A DNA stretch of 64,000 nt from Streptomyces sp. NBC_01454 (GTDB lineage Bacteria > Actinomycetota > Actinomycetes > Streptomycetales > Streptomycetaceae), in assembly GCF_036227565.1 (NCBI RefSeq), contig NZ_CP109460.1:2356001-2420000 (forward strand), read 5' to 3'. Of this stretch, positions 20,793 through 49,500 are shown in pieces. A program made the position numbers and the translations under genes. Each line of letters opens with the position of its first letter. Position 1 is the stretch's first letter. The notes beneath the pieces were generated by a model. It did not search any database and had not been told where the DNA came from. It saw only the letters and a list, made by a program, of their open reading frames with translations.

Positions 20793-22421
20793 TCAGTCCT
20801 GCGGCTCGACCCCGGCCCGCAGCAGCCCGTAGGCGTAGGCGTCGTCCAGTGCCTGCCAGGACGCGGCGATGACGTTCTCCGCGACGCCGACCGTGGACCA
20901 CTCGCCCTTGCCGTCGCCGGTGGAGACCAGGACGCGGGTGATGGAGCCGGTGCCCAGGGCGCCCTCCAGGATGCGGACCTTGTAGTCCACCAGCTCCATG
21001 TGGGCCAGTTCCGGATAGATCTGCTCCAGGCCCACCCGCAGCGCCCGGTCCAGGGCGTTGACCGGGCCGTTGCCCTCGGCGGTGGCGACGATCCGCTCGC
21101 CCTTGGCCCACAGCTTCACGGTCGCCTCGTTGGCGTGCGTCCCGTCGGGGCGGTCCTCGACGATCGCCCGCCAGGACTCGACGGTGAAGTAGCGCACCGG
21201 CCTGCCCCGGACCTCCTCGCGCAGCAGCAGCTCGAAGGACGCGTCGGCGGCCTCGTACGTGTAGCCCGCCAGCTCGCGCTCCTTGACCCGCCCGACGAGG
21301 CGGCCGACCAGCTCGCGGTCGCCGCTGAGATCGAAGCCCAGCTCCTTGCCCTTGAGCTCGATGGAAGCACGGCCGGCCATGTCGGAGACCAGCATCCGCA
21401 TGGTGTTGCCGACCAGGGCCGGATCGATGTGCTGGTAGAGGTCCGGGTCGACCTTGATGGCGGAGGCGTGCAGCCCGGCCTTGTGGGCGAAGGCCGAGAC
21501 GCCGACGTAGGGCTGGTGGGTGGAAGGGGTGAGGTTGACGACCTCGGCGATGGCGTGCGAGATCCGGGTGGTCTCGGCGAGCTTGCCCTCGGGCAGCACC
21601 CGGCGCCCGTACTTGAGCTCCAGGGCGGCGGCGACGGGGAAGAGATTGGAGTTGCCGACCCGCTCGCCGTAGCCGTTGGCGGTGCACTGCACGTGGGTGG
21701 CGCCCGCGTCCACCGCGGCCAGCGTGTTGGCGACCGCGCAGCCGGTGTCGTCCTGGGCGTGGATGCCCAGCCGGGCGCCGGTGTCCGCGAGGACGGTCCG
21801 CACGACCGCGGTGATCTGCGCCGGGAGCATCCCGCCGTTGGTGTCGCAGAGCACCACGACATCGGCGCCGGCCTCGCTCGCGGTCCGCACGACCTGCTTG
21901 GCGTAGACCGCGTCCAGCGCATAGCCGTCGAAGAAGTGCTCGCAGTCGAGGAAGACCCGGCGGCCCTGGGCCCGCAGATAGGCGACGGTGTCCCCGACCA
22001 TCGCGAGGTTCTCCTCGGGTGTGGTGCGCAGCGCCAGCTCCACGTGCCCGACATGGGACTTGGCGACCAGGGTGATCACCGGGGCCCCGGACTCCAGGAG
22101 CGCGGCGACCTGCGCGTCGTCCTCGACGCGCACGCCGGCCTTGCGGGTGGCGCCGAACGCGACCAGCTGGGCGTGCCGGAAGTCGATCTCCGCGCGGGCG
22201 CGCTGGAAGAACTCGGTGTCCCGGGGGTTGGCGCCGGGCCAGCCGCCCTCGATGAAGCCCACGCCGAAGTCGTCGAGGTGCCGGGCGATGGTCAGCTTGT
22301 CGGCGACGGTGAGGTTGATGCCCTCGCGCTGCGCGCCGTCGCGCAGCGTGGTGTCGAAGACGTGGAAGTCGTCGGACACCGCGGCGGCGGGGGTCGGGGA
22401 GGGTTCTGCTGCGTCCGTCAT
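20793..22421 (-). CDS. cimA: Citramalate synthase
   Basis: A 542-residue enzyme of the LeuA/homocitrate-synthase family that condenses pyruvate and acetyl-CoA to (R)-citramalate, the entry to threonine-independent isoleucine synthesis. The catalytic TIM barrel has DTTLRDGAQREGI, the metal-binding HAQDDTGCAVANT, and NGYGERVGN. The C-terminal third (after about 400) is the LeuA-type allosteric dimer domain. The motif order and length match actinomycete citramalate synthases (family TIGR00977) rather than canonical 2-isopropylmalate synthase. ATG 22421 has AGGAG ten bases upstream; upstream codons belong to a 5' leader with an attenuator. End-product control by isoleucine is expected from the family and supported here by the leader. 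Confidence 0.92.
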   Translation of the reverse strand: MTDAAEPSPTPAAAVSDDFHVFDTTLRDGAQREGINLTVADKLTIARHLDDFGVGFIEGGWPGANPRDTEFFQRARAEIDFRHAQLVAFGATRKAGVRVEDDAQVAALLESGAPVITLVAKSHVGHVELALRTTPEENLAMVGDTVAYLRAQGRRVFLDCEHFFDGYALDAVYAKQVVRTASEAGADVVVLCDTNGGMLPAQITAVVRTVLADTGARLGIHAQDDTGCAVANTLAAVDAGATHVQCTANGYGERVGNSNLFPVAAALELKYGRRVLPEGKLAETTRISHAIAEVVNLTPSTHQPYVGVSAFAHKAGLHASAIKVDPDLYQHIDPALVGNTMRMLVSDMAGRASIELKGKELGFDLSGDRELVGRLVGRVKERELAGYTYEAADASFELLLREEVRGRPVRYFTVESWRAIVEDRPDGTHANEATVKLWAKGERIVATAEGNGPVNALDRALRVGLEQIYPELAHMELVDYKVRILEGALGTGSITRVLVSTGDGKGEWSTVGVAENVIAASWQALDDAYAYGLLRAGVEPQD

Positions 22422-22526
22422 GCTCGTTTGGCTCCTGTCGGGATCTCGGTCTACCGGAATAACCGGTTCCACCGCCCCTCCATGCTCCCTCGCGCTCCGC
22501 CTCCGGTGACGTGTGGGCCGGAAACG

Positions 22527-22555
22527 AAAAGACCCCTCGCGGGTGCGAGAGGTCT
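22527..22555 (-). terminator. Attenuator terminator in the cimA leader
   Basis: Read on the minus strand, arms AGACCTCTCGC and GCGAGGGGTCT (one mismatch) with a four-base loop are followed by a TTTT run. It lies 54 bases downstream of the leader-peptide stop and about 105 bases before the cimA start, so it can only act on the cimA transcript. Confidence 0.7.
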
Positions 22556-22609
22556 GCGCGCGGGTCTGGGACGACGGTGGCCGCGCCGTACTCGGTTCGT
22601 ACGGGGCGG

Positions 22610-22645
22610 TCACTGCGGACCGGCGCGCCTGCTGCCAATAATCAT
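22610..22645 (-). CDS. Putative cimA leader peptide MIIGSRRAGPQ
   Basis: An 11-codon frame with two consecutive Ile codons (ATT ATT) directly after the start. It is flanked by a perfect 12-bp inverted repeat: plus-strand CACTGCGGACCG at 22611-22622, overlapping its last codons, and CGGTCCGCAGTG at 22660-22671 just upstream. An intrinsic terminator follows. The ribosome site is weak. Position, Ile codons, stem and terminator together suggest isoleucine-responsive attenuation of cimA. Confidence 0.55.
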   Translation of the reverse strand: MIIGSRRAGPQ

Positions 22646-22759
22646 GGCGAACGAGAGCACGGTCCGCAGTGTGCCACAACCCCGGGCGGCGTGGACGGCG
22701 GTCTCACCATGCGGGCGCACCGCCCATGCGGTCGGCCGTGCGCCCGGCCGGCCGCGCGC

Positions 22760-24088
22760 TCAGTCGGCGACGGGCGCCGGCCGCGGCGCCTTCGCGGCGG
22801 CCACGCTCCCCCCGGCCCCGACCTGGTGCAGATCGATGGTGCGGGTCTCGCGCATGCTGAGGTAGACGATCAGCGAGACGGCCGCGCAGCCGGCGACGTA
22901 CCAGTAGTAGCCGGACTCGTGACCGTCGCCCTTGAACCACAGGGCGACATACTCCGCGGTGCCGCCGAACAGCGCGTTGGCGATGGCGTAGGGCAGGGCC
23001 ACGCCCAGTGCGCGGATGCCGGTCGGGAACAGTTCGGCCTTCACGCAGGCGTTGATCGAGGTGTAGCCGGTGACCACGACCAGCGCGAGCAGCGAGAGCC
23101 CCAGGGCCGGCCAGAAGCTGCCGGCGTGCTTGAGCAGCGTCATGATCGGCACGGTCAGGAACGTCGAGCCGACCGCGAAGGTGATCAGCAGCGGGCGGCG
23201 GCCGATCCGGTCGGAGAGCTTGCCGGCCAGCGGCTGGAGGCACATGAAGAGGAACAGCGCGCAGAAGCTGACCAGCGAGGCGGTCGGCTTGTCCAGGCCG
23301 GCGCTGCCCGAGAGGTACTTGGTGAGATATGTCGTGTACGTGTAGTACGCGACCGTGCCGCCCATGGTGAGCGCGATGACCAGGAACGCCTCGCGCTTGT
23401 GGGCCAGCAGCGCCTTGAGGGTGCCGCGCGCCGGGTCGGCGTGGGCACCCTCGTCCGCGGCGTACACCTCGGTCTCCAGCATGTTGCGCCGCAGATAGAA
23501 GACGATGGCGGCGCCCAGCGCACCGATGATGAACGGGATCCGCCAGGCCCAGCTGTGCAGCGCGTCGTCGGACAGGGTCCGCTGGAGCACGATCAGCAGC
23601 CCGAGGCCCAGCAACTGTCCCGCGGTCATCGAGACGTACTGGAAGCTGGAGGCGAAGCCGCGCTGCCCGGGGGCGGACGCCTCGGTGAGGTAGGTGGCGC
23701 TGGCCGCGTACTCGCCGCCGACCGAGAGACCCTGCAGCATCCGGGCCAGGAGCAGGACGGCCACGCCGCCGTAGCCCGCGACGCCGTACGTGGGGGCCAC
23801 GGCGATCAGGATCGCCGAGACGGACATCAGCGTGACGGTCAGGGTCAGCGCGGCCTTGCGGCCCTTGCGGTCGCCGACCCGACCGAGCACCCAGCCGCCC
23901 ACCGGCCGCATGAAGAAGCCGACGGCGAAGATCCCCATGGTGTTCATGAGGTTCGCCGTGTCATTGCCCTTCGGGAAGAACGAATCGGCGAAGTAGACCG
24001 CGAAGCTGGCGTAGACGAACCAGTCGAACCACTCGACCATGTTGCCGGCCGAGCCCACCCAGATCTTTTTCCATTGCTCTCGTCCCAT
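22760..24088 (-). CDS. MFS transporter, metabolite:H+ symporter (MHS) family
   Basis: A 442-residue inner-membrane secondary transporter with about 12 membrane segments. The N-terminus WVGSAGNMVEWFDWFVYASF is the MHS signature shared with alpha-ketoglutarate, proline/betaine and citrate symporters. GRVGDRKGRKAAL is the cytoplasmic loop 2-3 motif, and GGEYAASATYLTE and SDRIGRRPLL follow in the usual places. ATG 24088 starts at this conserved N-terminus. The substrate is likely an organic acid or amino-acid-like solute. It lies 89 bases upstream of the cimA leader inverted repeat on the same strand, but cimA probably has its own promoter. No dedicated regulator is adjacent. Confidence 0.88.
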   Translation of the reverse strand: MGREQWKKIWVGSAGNMVEWFDWFVYASFAVYFADSFFPKGNDTANLMNTMGIFAVGFFMRPVGGWVLGRVGDRKGRKAALTLTVTLMSVSAILIAVAPTYGVAGYGGVAVLLLARMLQGLSVGGEYAASATYLTEASAPGQRGFASSFQYVSMTAGQLLGLGLLIVLQRTLSDDALHSWAWRIPFIIGALGAAIVFYLRRNMLETEVYAADEGAHADPARGTLKALLAHKREAFLVIALTMGGTVAYYTYTTYLTKYLSGSAGLDKPTASLVSFCALFLFMCLQPLAGKLSDRIGRRPLLITFAVGSTFLTVPIMTLLKHAGSFWPALGLSLLALVVVTGYTSINACVKAELFPTGIRALGVALPYAIANALFGGTAEYVALWFKGDGHESGYYWYVAGCAAVSLIVYLSMRETRTIDLHQVGAGGSVAAAKAPRPAPVAD

Positions 24089-46405: not shown

Positions 46406-46439
46406 AAAAAACCCCCCGTGCCAAGTGGCAAGCGAGGGG
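46406..46439 (-). terminator. Attenuator terminator in the ilvB leader
   Basis: On the minus strand, CCCCTCGCTTGCC/GGCACGGGGGG forms an imperfect hairpin followed by six T. It lies 44 bases downstream of the leader-peptide stop and 57 bases before the ilvB start. Confidence 0.8.
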
Positions 46440-46482
46440 AGCGCGTCGGTGCGGTTAGCCGGGTTTCGTCAGTGACCCGGCC

Positions 46483-46524
46483 TCAGCCGACGCGCTTTCC
46501 AAGTACGAGAATTCGGGTGCGCAT
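46483..46524 (-). CDS. ilvB leader peptide MRTRILVLGKRVG
   Basis: A 13-residue peptide with Ile-Leu-Val-Leu codons in a row, preceded by a good GGGAGG ribosome site. Its last codons (plus strand CCGACGCGC, 46487-46495) are complementary to GCGCGTCGG at 46441-46449, next to the terminator arm, and a further 7-bp stem GCCGGGT/ACCCGGC follows at 46458-46481. This is the branched-chain amino acid attenuator known upstream of ilvB in actinomycetes. Confidence 0.85.
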   Translation of the reverse strand: MRTRILVLGKRVG

Positions 46525-46557: not shown

Positions 46558-49500
46558 TCAAGTGGGTGGGACGGAGGTCTCACTATTTGAGCGCAATGGC
46601 GGATGCACGATCGATTCCGGGCCCGCCGGACCGCCCTGACGTACGGGCAGGCCGCTGCCGGTGAGCACCACCGCCCGGCTCTGGACCGCGAGGTCCGGCA
46701 CCGGATAGTGGGCGTGCGTCAGGGACCGCCGCAGCCGGGGTTCGTCGAGCGGCCCTGAGAAGGCCGTCCCCATGCCGTGCGTACAGCCCATGGAGCGCAG
46801 GGCGAGCACCTGCTCGGGCAGATCGACGCCGTCCGCGACGGACTGCATGCCCAGGTCGCCGGCGATCCGCAGCAGCCCGGCGGTGATCTTGTGCAGCCGG
46901 GCGGACTCCACCACTCCGTCGACCAGCCCGCGGTCCAGCCGCAGGACGTCGACGGGGAGCCTGCGCAGCGCGCTGATGGCGGCGAATCCGCTGCCGAAGC
47001 CGTCCAGGGCGATCCGTACGCCGAGCCGGCGCAGCGCGACGAGCCGGCGCTCGAGGTCGTCCAGCGGAATGCGCGGATCGCTCTCGGACAGCTCCAGGAC
47101 GAGCGCGCGCGAGGGCAGGCCGTGCCGGGTGAGGAGCGACTCCACGCCCTTGGGGGACAGCGCCTGGTCCAGCAGCCGGCGGGCCGGGAGGCGGACCGCG
47201 ACCGGGACCGGATAGCCGGCGCAATGACGGGCCGCGGCCTGCTCGACGGCCGCCTCCAGCTGCCAGCGGTCCAGCTCCGCCGCGCGGTCGCCGTCCTCGG
47301 TGAAGCGGCCGCGGTCGCCGACCCGCAGGAACTCCGCGGGGGTGAAGAGGATGCCCTGGGCGGAGCGCCAGCGGGCGTGCGCCGCGACCGCGGTGACCCG
47401 CCCGCCGGCCAGCTCGACCACCGGCTGGTGCAGCAGGGAGAAGGCGCCGTCGTGCAGGGCCGTACGGAGCTTGGTGGCGAGCTCGGCACGGTGAGCCACC
47501 TCGGTCTGCATCTGCGGGGCGTACAGCTCCACCCGGCCCTTGCCGGCCTGCTTGGCGCGGTACATCGCGAGGTCCGCGTTGCGCAGCAGGCCCGCGGGGC
47601 TAACGCCCGGCTCGGCGAAGGCCACCCCGATGCTGGCCGCCACCCGCACCTCACGGCCGTCGATGCGGTACGGATCGGAGAGCCGGATGCGCAGCCGGTC
47701 GGCGATCTCGTGGATCCGGAATTCGCGGGCGGCGGGGTCGCGGGTGCCGTCGCCGGTGATCAGCGCGGCGAACTCGTCGCCGCCCAGCCGGGCCGCTATG
47801 TCCCCGGCGCGCACCGAATCACCGAGCCGGCGGGCGGCCTGGATCAGCAGCTCGTCGCCGGCCTGGTGGCCGATGGTGTCGTTGACCTGCTTGAAGCCGT
47901 CGAGGTCGATGTAGAGCACGGCGGTGTCGTGGTCGCTGGCACGGCGGCCGGTGACGGCCTGGGTGACGCGTTCGGTGAACAGGGCGCGGTTGGGCAGGTC
48001 GGTGAGCGCGTCGTGCGAGGCGTTGTGCTGGAGCTGGGCCTGCAGCCGGACGCGTTCGGTGACATCGCGGGAGTTGAAGATCAGGCCGCCGTGGTGGCGG
48101 TTGACCGTGGACTCGACGTTCAGCCAGCCGTCGCCGCCGGAGCGCTGCTCGCCGGCGCGGAAGCGGCACTCGATCCGGGTGGTGGGTTCGTCCTCGGGGG
48201 TGGCGGCGAGGAATCTGCGGACCTCGTGCACCACCCGGCCCAGGTCCTCGGGGTGGATCAGCGAGGCGAGTTCGGAGCCGACCAGCTCCTCGGCGTCGCG
48301 CCCGTAGACACCGGAGGCGGCCGGGCTGACGTAGTGGAGCACACCGGTGGGGGCGGCGATCATGATGACGTCGCTGGAGCCCTGCACCAGGGAGCGGAAG
48401 TGGTTCTCCTTCTGCGCCAACTCCTGGGTGAGGGTGATGTTGTCGAGCAGCATGATGCCCTGGCGGACGACCAGCGCGAGGACGACCGTGCAGCCGGTGA
48501 ACAGCACCACGCGGTCGATGCGCCGGCCGTCCAGGACGTTGGTGAGGATGCCCAGCGTGCAGACGGCGGCGGCGAGATACGGGGTCAGTGCGGCCAGCGA
48601 GCCGGCGATGGGACGGCTGCCGTGCGAGGGGGCCCGGCGCGCGGCGGGCCTGGCCTCCTGCTGGGTGCACTCGTCGCCCGCGCGGCGGGCGACCCATGGT
48701 GCGTACGCGAGGAGTATGGAGCCGGCGAACCATCCGGCGTCCAGGATCTGGCCGGAGCGGTAGTGCTCGCGCAGCAGCGGGGAGCTGAACAGGGCGTCGC
48801 ACAGCACCGTCAGCGCCAGGGCCGCGACCGCGGTGTTGATCGCCGAGCGGTGCACCGAGGAGCGCCGGAAGTGCAGCACGAGCACCATGCTCACCAGCAC
48901 GATGTCCAGCAGCGGATAGGCCAGCGACAGTGCGCTCTGGGCCACGCTGCGGCCCTGGAAGTGGGCGGTGTGGGCGAGCGCGAGGCTCCATGAGAGGGTG
49001 ACCAGCGACCCGGCGATCAGCCAGGAGTCGAGCCCCAGGCAGACCCAACCGGCCCTGTTCACCGGCCTCTTGGCGAGCACCAGCAGACCGACGATCGCCG
49101 GTGGCGCGAACAGCAGGAAGCAGAAGTCGGCCAGGGAGGGGCTGGGTACCGTGGTCCCCTCGATGACCTCGTACCAGCCCCATACGCCGTTGCCGAGGCC
49201 GGCCATCCCGGAGGAGGCGGCGAACAGCATCCAGGCGGGGCGGAAGCGGGTGCGGCGCTTGCGGGCGTACAGGCCGCAGGAGACGGCCGCCAGCAGTGCC
49301 GCGAAGCTGAGGCCGAAGTCCCCCATGAAGGCCGCGACTTCGGGCGACCCCCAGCCGAAGGCGGCGCCGACGGCATAGCCGCCGCAGACCACGGCGAGGA
49401 CGACCTGCGGCACCGCGCTCGGCGGATTGCCGGCCGGTGCCGGCGGCCGGGAGAGCATCGCCCCCGGGGCGCTCACCGGATTCTCCTGCTCACCCGCACC

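Follow-up and report, generated by a model that had tools for sequence, protein, structure and literature searches.

Comparative analysis of a putative isoleucine-responsive leader attenuator upstream of cimA in Streptomyces and other families of the class

The cimA locus, its promoter and its leader reading frame

The window analysed here, a stretch of 64,000 nt from Streptomyces sp. NBC_01454, carries on its minus strand the citramalate synthase gene cimA (20793..22421), assigned by TIGR00977 (608.9 bits, cut-off 450). All features of its upstream region described below lie on the same strand and comprise a conserved box, an extended -10 element, a short leader ORF with isoleucine codons, a hairpin (hairpin A) and an intrinsic terminator. 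For comparison, upstream regions were taken from the best 80 of 590 candidates, a named set biased by this choice toward close relatives, and from samples of the genus (150 genomes), the family (101) and the class (148), in which upstream DNA was taken for part of the sampled genomes and some was fetched by place. In total, 236 upstream regions could be placed relative to cimA and five could not (L222, L223, L225, L241 and L245, unplaceable by tblastn). Within Streptomyces, the sequence that begins with the Ile codons and extends to the terminator varies hardly at all except in its middle part.

The extended -10 element TGG-CACACT (22668..22676) lies 7 nt before a 16-codon leader ORF with a GTG start, MLSFAMIIGSRRAGPQ (22610..22660). 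A pattern demanding a -10-like hexamer (TGN plus xAxxxT), a spacing of 4-9 nt, an ATG or GTG, an Ile within the first ten residues and a T-run matched 214 of the 236 regions; the 22 unmatched ones include L150, L154, L229 and L231, which show the element by eye, and one of the matches, MGVLSVRDIVRVSTSETVS, looks misassigned. Among the 214 leaders the start codon was GTG in 195 and ATG in 19, and it followed the -10 element at 6 nt in 193 and at 7 nt in 17, giving 210 of 214 at 6-7 nt where 4-9 nt were allowed. Because of this close and constant spacing behind an extended -10 element, the leader was judged most likely to be leaderless, with the ORF starting at GTG 22660 and the same base as the putative +1. 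For S. lividans, a mean distance of 6.3 nt from -10 to start and 17% leaderless transcripts are reported in the accessible part of PMC8079986.

In a second count, which made no use of the promoter, 196 of 199 Streptomycetaceae proved to carry an in-frame ATG or GTG that precedes the first Ile by 5-7 codons, the three misses being wrongly anchored; in 172 of these 196 it stands at six codons, as in this genome. The original prediction had let the leader begin at the ATG directly before the Ile codons (22643-22645). In a set of 196 Streptomycetaceae this codon is ATG in 123 and another codon in 73 (ACG 24, CTG 18, CTC 14, others), and it was abandoned as the leader start in favour of the conserved one five codons upstream (22660). 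Of the Met-Ile-Ile motif for which conservation had been suggested as a check, the first isoleucine was retained (214/214, with Ile demanded by the pattern) and the methionine was not consistently kept. In other families the ORF often has only eight codons, as in L159 (GTG GCA CAG GCC CTG ATT ATT GGA TAG).

Upstream of the promoter lies the conserved box GCATNNTGAGAC (22701..22712), which we regard as a possible activator site. Its core GAGA[C/T] was found between -75 and -25 in 185 of 196 Streptomycetaceae, compared with 6.6% in shuffles, and the T preceding it falls at -45 to -47 from the leader start in 182 of 196; outside Streptomycetaceae the core was present in 5 of 18 regions. A TGAGAC box stands upstream of both the cimA promoter and the ilvB promoter of this window (46576-46586, minus strand). 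NdgR was considered as the protein binding the box and set aside, the NdgR motif given in the accessible part of PMC4340878 being of the GTCCACC type and unlike the box.

The region also holds a 12-bp inverted repeat (22611-22622 and 22660-22671), which had been described as enclosing the leader start and had been suggested possibly to hide it. The repeat is present and perfect in this genome. Of 196 Streptomycetaceae, 10 without the right-arm motif were dropped before scoring, and at least 10 of the 12 pairs were kept in only four of the remaining 186, namely this genome (L001), L086, L087 and L088; the repeat was accordingly rejected as a conserved stem and is, as far as these genomes tell, lineage-specific. 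Its left arm (22660..22671) overlaps the conserved -10 element and spacer and ends on the putative +1, so that almost none of it would be transcribed; apart from the first base of the predicted transcript, what lies there is DNA of promoter and spacer, with no conserved RNA arm. The ATG enclosed by the repeat is likewise not the conserved start. A stem that hides the leader start is hardly credible on these grounds, perfect as the repeat is in this genome.

Conserved hairpins, their spread and sister leaders

The putative regulatory Ile codons, ATT ATT, are codons 7 and 8 of the leader ORF (22637..22642). In the 214 leaders the first Ile codon, for which the pattern demands Ile, is ATT in 205 and ATC in 9, and the codon after it is ATT in 161, ATC in 37, ATG in 11 and another in 5, with a non-Ile codon in 16. 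ATT is a wobble-read codon, and among the 1486 Ile codons of 80 cimA genes it occurs only 4 times. Such a rare, wobble-read codon would suit a sensor; it is also possible that ATTATT is kept by a constraint at the nucleotide level instead. The tail of the peptide is read in different frames in different genomes (SRRAGPQ, SSAPVRSDR, GRARRSAVTAP), whereas the DNA encoding it is conserved, as expected if this region acts as RNA.

This RNA is predicted to form hairpin A, with its 5′ arm GCGCGCCGGTC at 22618..22628, beginning 14 nt after the first base of the first Ile codon, and its 3′ arm GACCCGCGCGC at 22556..22566, both marked by covariation. The inner part between them (22567..22617) contains extra stems in Streptomycetaceae, with compensated changes. 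Directly abutting hairpin A is the intrinsic terminator AGACCTCTCGC-ACCC-GCGAGGGGTCT with its T-run (22527..22555), which is the only terminator-like site in 22300-23200 (shuffle mean 0.2) and recurs in relatives, bearing out its original prediction. The fold of 22500-22720 is better than those of 200 out of 200 shuffles (z -4.0).

Covariation was assessed in 24 sequences outside Streptomycetaceae, in which 93% of the cells were paired and 12 of 21 pairs, amounting to 44 cells, had changed on both sides. None of 500 shuffles reached the values of four of five measures, 39 of the 500 did so for the count of further pair types, and sliding the partner columns by 1-3 positions lowered pairing to 39-55%. 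Compensated changes were also seen in 13 of 32 predicted pairs among 34 Streptomycetaceae. When the 236 regions were parsed, six gave no candidate and eight more were dropped, and some of the 222 remaining rows are mis-anchored (L147, L157 and L239 in the loop table). The linker between hairpin A and the terminator, on which these rows were not filtered, is absent in 205 rows, a single nucleotide in 13 and longer in 4; a set of 48 representatives was restricted to linkers of at most 2 nt, which biases its linker counts. Hairpin A begins 11-14 nt after the first base of the first Ile codon in 197 of the 222 rows and 10-14 nt after it among the 48 representatives. Taken together, the conserved RNA, as read from these alignments, is a pair of abutting hairpins, A and the terminator. 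The sequence itself is as first described (ATG-ATT-ATT...TGA, the repeat, the terminator and cimA downstream), except that the abutting hairpin A had not been recognized.

A covariance model, R1, was trained on the 24 sequences outside Streptomycetaceae and detected the element in 81 of the 81 loci given and in 60 of 60 further Streptomycetaceae, in a run that excluded L086-L146 and 16 of L148-L165. In other families it matched 12 of 20 sampled loci (L226-L245), of which 11 were training sequences; R1 gave no match at the other eight cimA loci (L230, L232 and L236-L241) or at L160. Among the five loci not placed by tblastn, the element was recovered in L222, L223, L225 and L245, with no R1 match in L241. 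In a scan of the phylum, 66 of 246 genomes had a match with an E value of at most 0.001, a level at which some chance matches are expected. The isoleucine leader peptide and terminator first noted in front of this one cimA also precede the gene, in the same order, across Streptomycetaceae and in a large number of further families of the class, and the comparison supports well that the putative attenuator is spread far wider than the reading of a single sequence could show.

R1 also found leaders of other genes. The leader MRTRILVLGKRVG of ilvB in this window (46406-46524, minus strand; peptide 46483-46524, terminator 46406-46439) gave a match at 46406-46506 with E 1.3e-5; its peptide is identical to the published IlvL, and the gene behind it encodes the acetolactate synthase large subunit. 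The leuS leader MRAVRLLLSGPR of the same genome (L248, 1501-1588), which is near the published LeuL2, was matched with E 0.0014. In the folds of both leaders a hairpin sits directly against the terminator, and both genes were confirmed; further matches in this genome, at E of at least 0.16, were treated as chance. For three of the matches outside the class, the gene following was identified by HMM, as ilvD (L279), ilvB (L275) and leuB (L269). The leaders of cimA, ilvB and leuS accordingly have one RNA architecture in which the codons follow the gene, and this change of codons with the gene is the strongest indirect argument for the peptide as the sensor. In two genomes outside the class (L273 and L277), the same two hairpins accompany a leader that carries valine codons, and the ORF behind it, judged by eye, resembles a cysteine hydrolase or isochorismatase, which is no obvious branched-chain gene.

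A leader that binds a protein or small molecule, as a T-box or riboswitch does, and in which the ORF is incidental would agree with the very high sequence conservation in Streptomyces. We consider it very improbable, given that the codons change with the gene, that the rare ATT is kept, and that no Rfam family matched the window at E up to 1 or eight loci at gathering scores.

Read-through into cimA and the proposed switch

In Streptomyces about 105 nt separate the T-run from cimA (22527 to 22421), which would leave space for a promoter of cimA's own further down, with the terminator merely closing a small leader gene or sRNA. The candidate cimA start, however, follows the T-run by only 12-17 nt in L154, L229, L234 and L244, where cimA must be reached by read-through because there is no room for a second promoter, and all the loci found have kept the cassette together in front of cimA. 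On account of these four loci, the idea that cimA has its own promoter and that the small gene before it is unrelated was rejected; in our view it is very unlikely.

It is very likely that an attenuator as such operates at cimA, and we hold with good confidence that it is an isoleucine-responsive, ribosome-mediated transcription attenuator, whatever its inner mechanism. The promoter, the leader start, the Ile codons, both hairpins and their abutment are features that comparison supports, whereas isoleucine sensing and the direction of the response are suggested by the function of the gene and by the sister leaders. How the ribosome would act on the terminator is the more tentative part, and the geometry of the leader is what leads us to propose that an intact hairpin A might hinder it.

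In the sequence of events that we favour, RNA polymerase would begin at the G of GTG 22660, yielding a leaderless mRNA on which the ribosome starts at the 5′ end. A ribosome usually covers about 12 nt past the first base of its A-site codon; combined with the offset of hairpin A, this footprint means that a ribosome waiting at the first Ile codon would stop with its front about at the foot of A, and that one at the stop codon would cover the 5′ arm of A, in eight-codon and sixteen-codon leaders alike. With ample Ile-tRNA, the ribosome would reach the stop codon and open the 5′ arm of A, the terminator would fold and cimA would be off. With scarce Ile-tRNA, the ribosome would wait at Ile and A would stay intact; at the mouth of the RNA exit channel of the polymerase, it could then hinder closure of the terminator stem and allow read-through into cimA. 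The sense of this putative response would be the right one for a biosynthetic gene.

An antiterminator sharing bases with the terminator was sought by scoring the terminator arms against upstream segments, and the mean z values ranged from -0.42 to +0.71 in the 48 representatives (44 for loops), with positive controls at -3.5 for A5′:A3′ and -4.7 for T5′:T3′. The upstream 30-60 nt gave +0.51 against the terminator 5′ arm over 184 sequences. In the same test, the E. coli leaders (L283-L286) gave -1.5 for trp, -5.0 for thr, -0.4 for his and -2.1 for leu, and the value for his means that the test can miss a real case. In classical attenuation of this kind, at least in Streptomycetaceae, GGTC in A5′ would pair with the GACC opening the terminator 5′ arm, or GACCC in A3′ with GGGTC in the terminator 3′ arm. 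This genome does possess the order GGTC-GACC-GACC-GGTC, and z is below -1.65 in 29% of the 48 representatives for A5′ with the terminator 5′ arm and in 25% for A3′ with the terminator 3′ arm. The means of the two pairings, however, are only -0.39 and -0.42, the score of the upstream segment against the terminator 5′ arm does not approach those of E. coli trp, thr and leu, and by inspection the repeat is absent in L159, L226, L229 and others outside Streptomycetaceae. Shared-base switching thus appears unlikely, with no conserved antiterminator across families and a weak candidate in Streptomycetaceae alone.

Two particular pairings were also rejected. A mini-hairpin GCGcAG:CUCGC, joining the 3′ arm of A to the terminator 5′ arm, appears in constrained folds that leave the foot of A free, and inspection of L159, L227 and L233 revealed that it is not kept there. 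The loop of A paired with the terminator 3′ arm, in the style of ilvB-II, had a mean z of 0.12 (25 rows, a few of them misparsed) and of 0.05 (n = 44).

The terminator persisted in constrained folds of nine sequences at all ribosome positions examined, so a switch is not predicted by equilibrium folding alone. Hairpin A could conversely be a pause or helper hairpin that favours termination, with a ribosome stalled at Ile disturbing its foot and thereby lowering termination. On the footprint given above, a ribosome positioned on the second Ile codon would extend over at most about 5 nt of A, and clusters of adjacent hairpins have been proposed to support termination (accessible part of PMC8355165). 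A ribosome at the stop codon, however, would disturb A more than one stalled at Ile, which gives the wrong sense unless release is fast, and a helper role of A seems to us rather improbable.

Hindrance of the terminator by an intact hairpin A would amount to antitermination by abutment, in which the two hairpins need share no bases and the proximal one might sterically block the terminator. We offer this as a conjecture, and it is with the same reserve that we would extend it to cimA, ilvB and leuS and, in other classes, to ilvD and leuB. If true, it would constitute a switch logic unlike that of competing secondary structures, and its shortest cimA forms would comprise an eight-codon ORF and about 75-80 nt from start codon to T-run. 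These short forms could find use in engineered strains as sensors of isoleucine.

Comparison with known leader attenuators

CimA provides the entry to isoleucine via citramalate, and with this element the step would gain a concrete control switch common to Streptomyces and other families of the class. No description of a cimA attenuator was found in the open-licence literature, supplements aside. The accessible part of the S. lividans study lists eight leader peptides, among which cimA is absent (PMC8079986), and Seliverstov et al. 2005, as far as its accessible text goes, describe no conserved structures for other amino-acid pathways (PMC1262725).

In trp-type attenuation of E. coli, the position of the ribosome on regulatory codons decides between termination and read-through, as it would at cimA. 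The cimA leader has an ORF with codons for the amino acid of the pathway and an intrinsic terminator between this ORF and the gene; it differs in that no conserved shared-base antiterminator was found, in its probably leaderless start and in its shortest ORFs of eight codons. Control of isoleucine-linked genes at the RNA level is also known from the T-box leaders of actinobacterial ileS (accessible part of PMC1262725), and no T-box or other Rfam match was obtained in the window or at the eight loci scanned. The ilvB-II motif of Corynebacterium, as described in the accessible part of PMC10272879, shares with cimA a branched-chain uORF, a hairpin (P1) and a terminator (P2). Its antiterminator is proposed there to arise when the P1 loop pairs with the right shoulder of P2, whereas the corresponding complementarity at cimA is not above that of shuffles.

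The closest likeness is to IlvL (ilvBHC) and LeuL2 (leuS) of Streptomyces, in which a short branched-chain leader peptide is likewise followed by a terminator and which are reported to be leaderless in S. lividans (accessible parts of PMC8079986 and PMC1262725). The ilvB and leuS leaders of this genome match the cimA RNA model, with the hairpin directly against the terminator as at cimA. The cimA leader in turn has a probably leaderless peptide, as judged from promoter spacing, branched-chain codons and a hairpin A abutting the terminator; it differs in its target gene and in having Ile codons only at the regulatory position. Its assignment as an actinobacterial branched-chain leader attenuator is well supported by comparison, with a proposed and possibly unusual switching step. 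For S. coelicolor ilvB, changes of candidate leader codons left regulation unaffected according to the accessible part of PMC1262725, and this leader is reportedly unlike a classical attenuator. An architecture without a shared-base antiterminator would predict such behaviour, and the ilvB puzzle thereby becomes testable.
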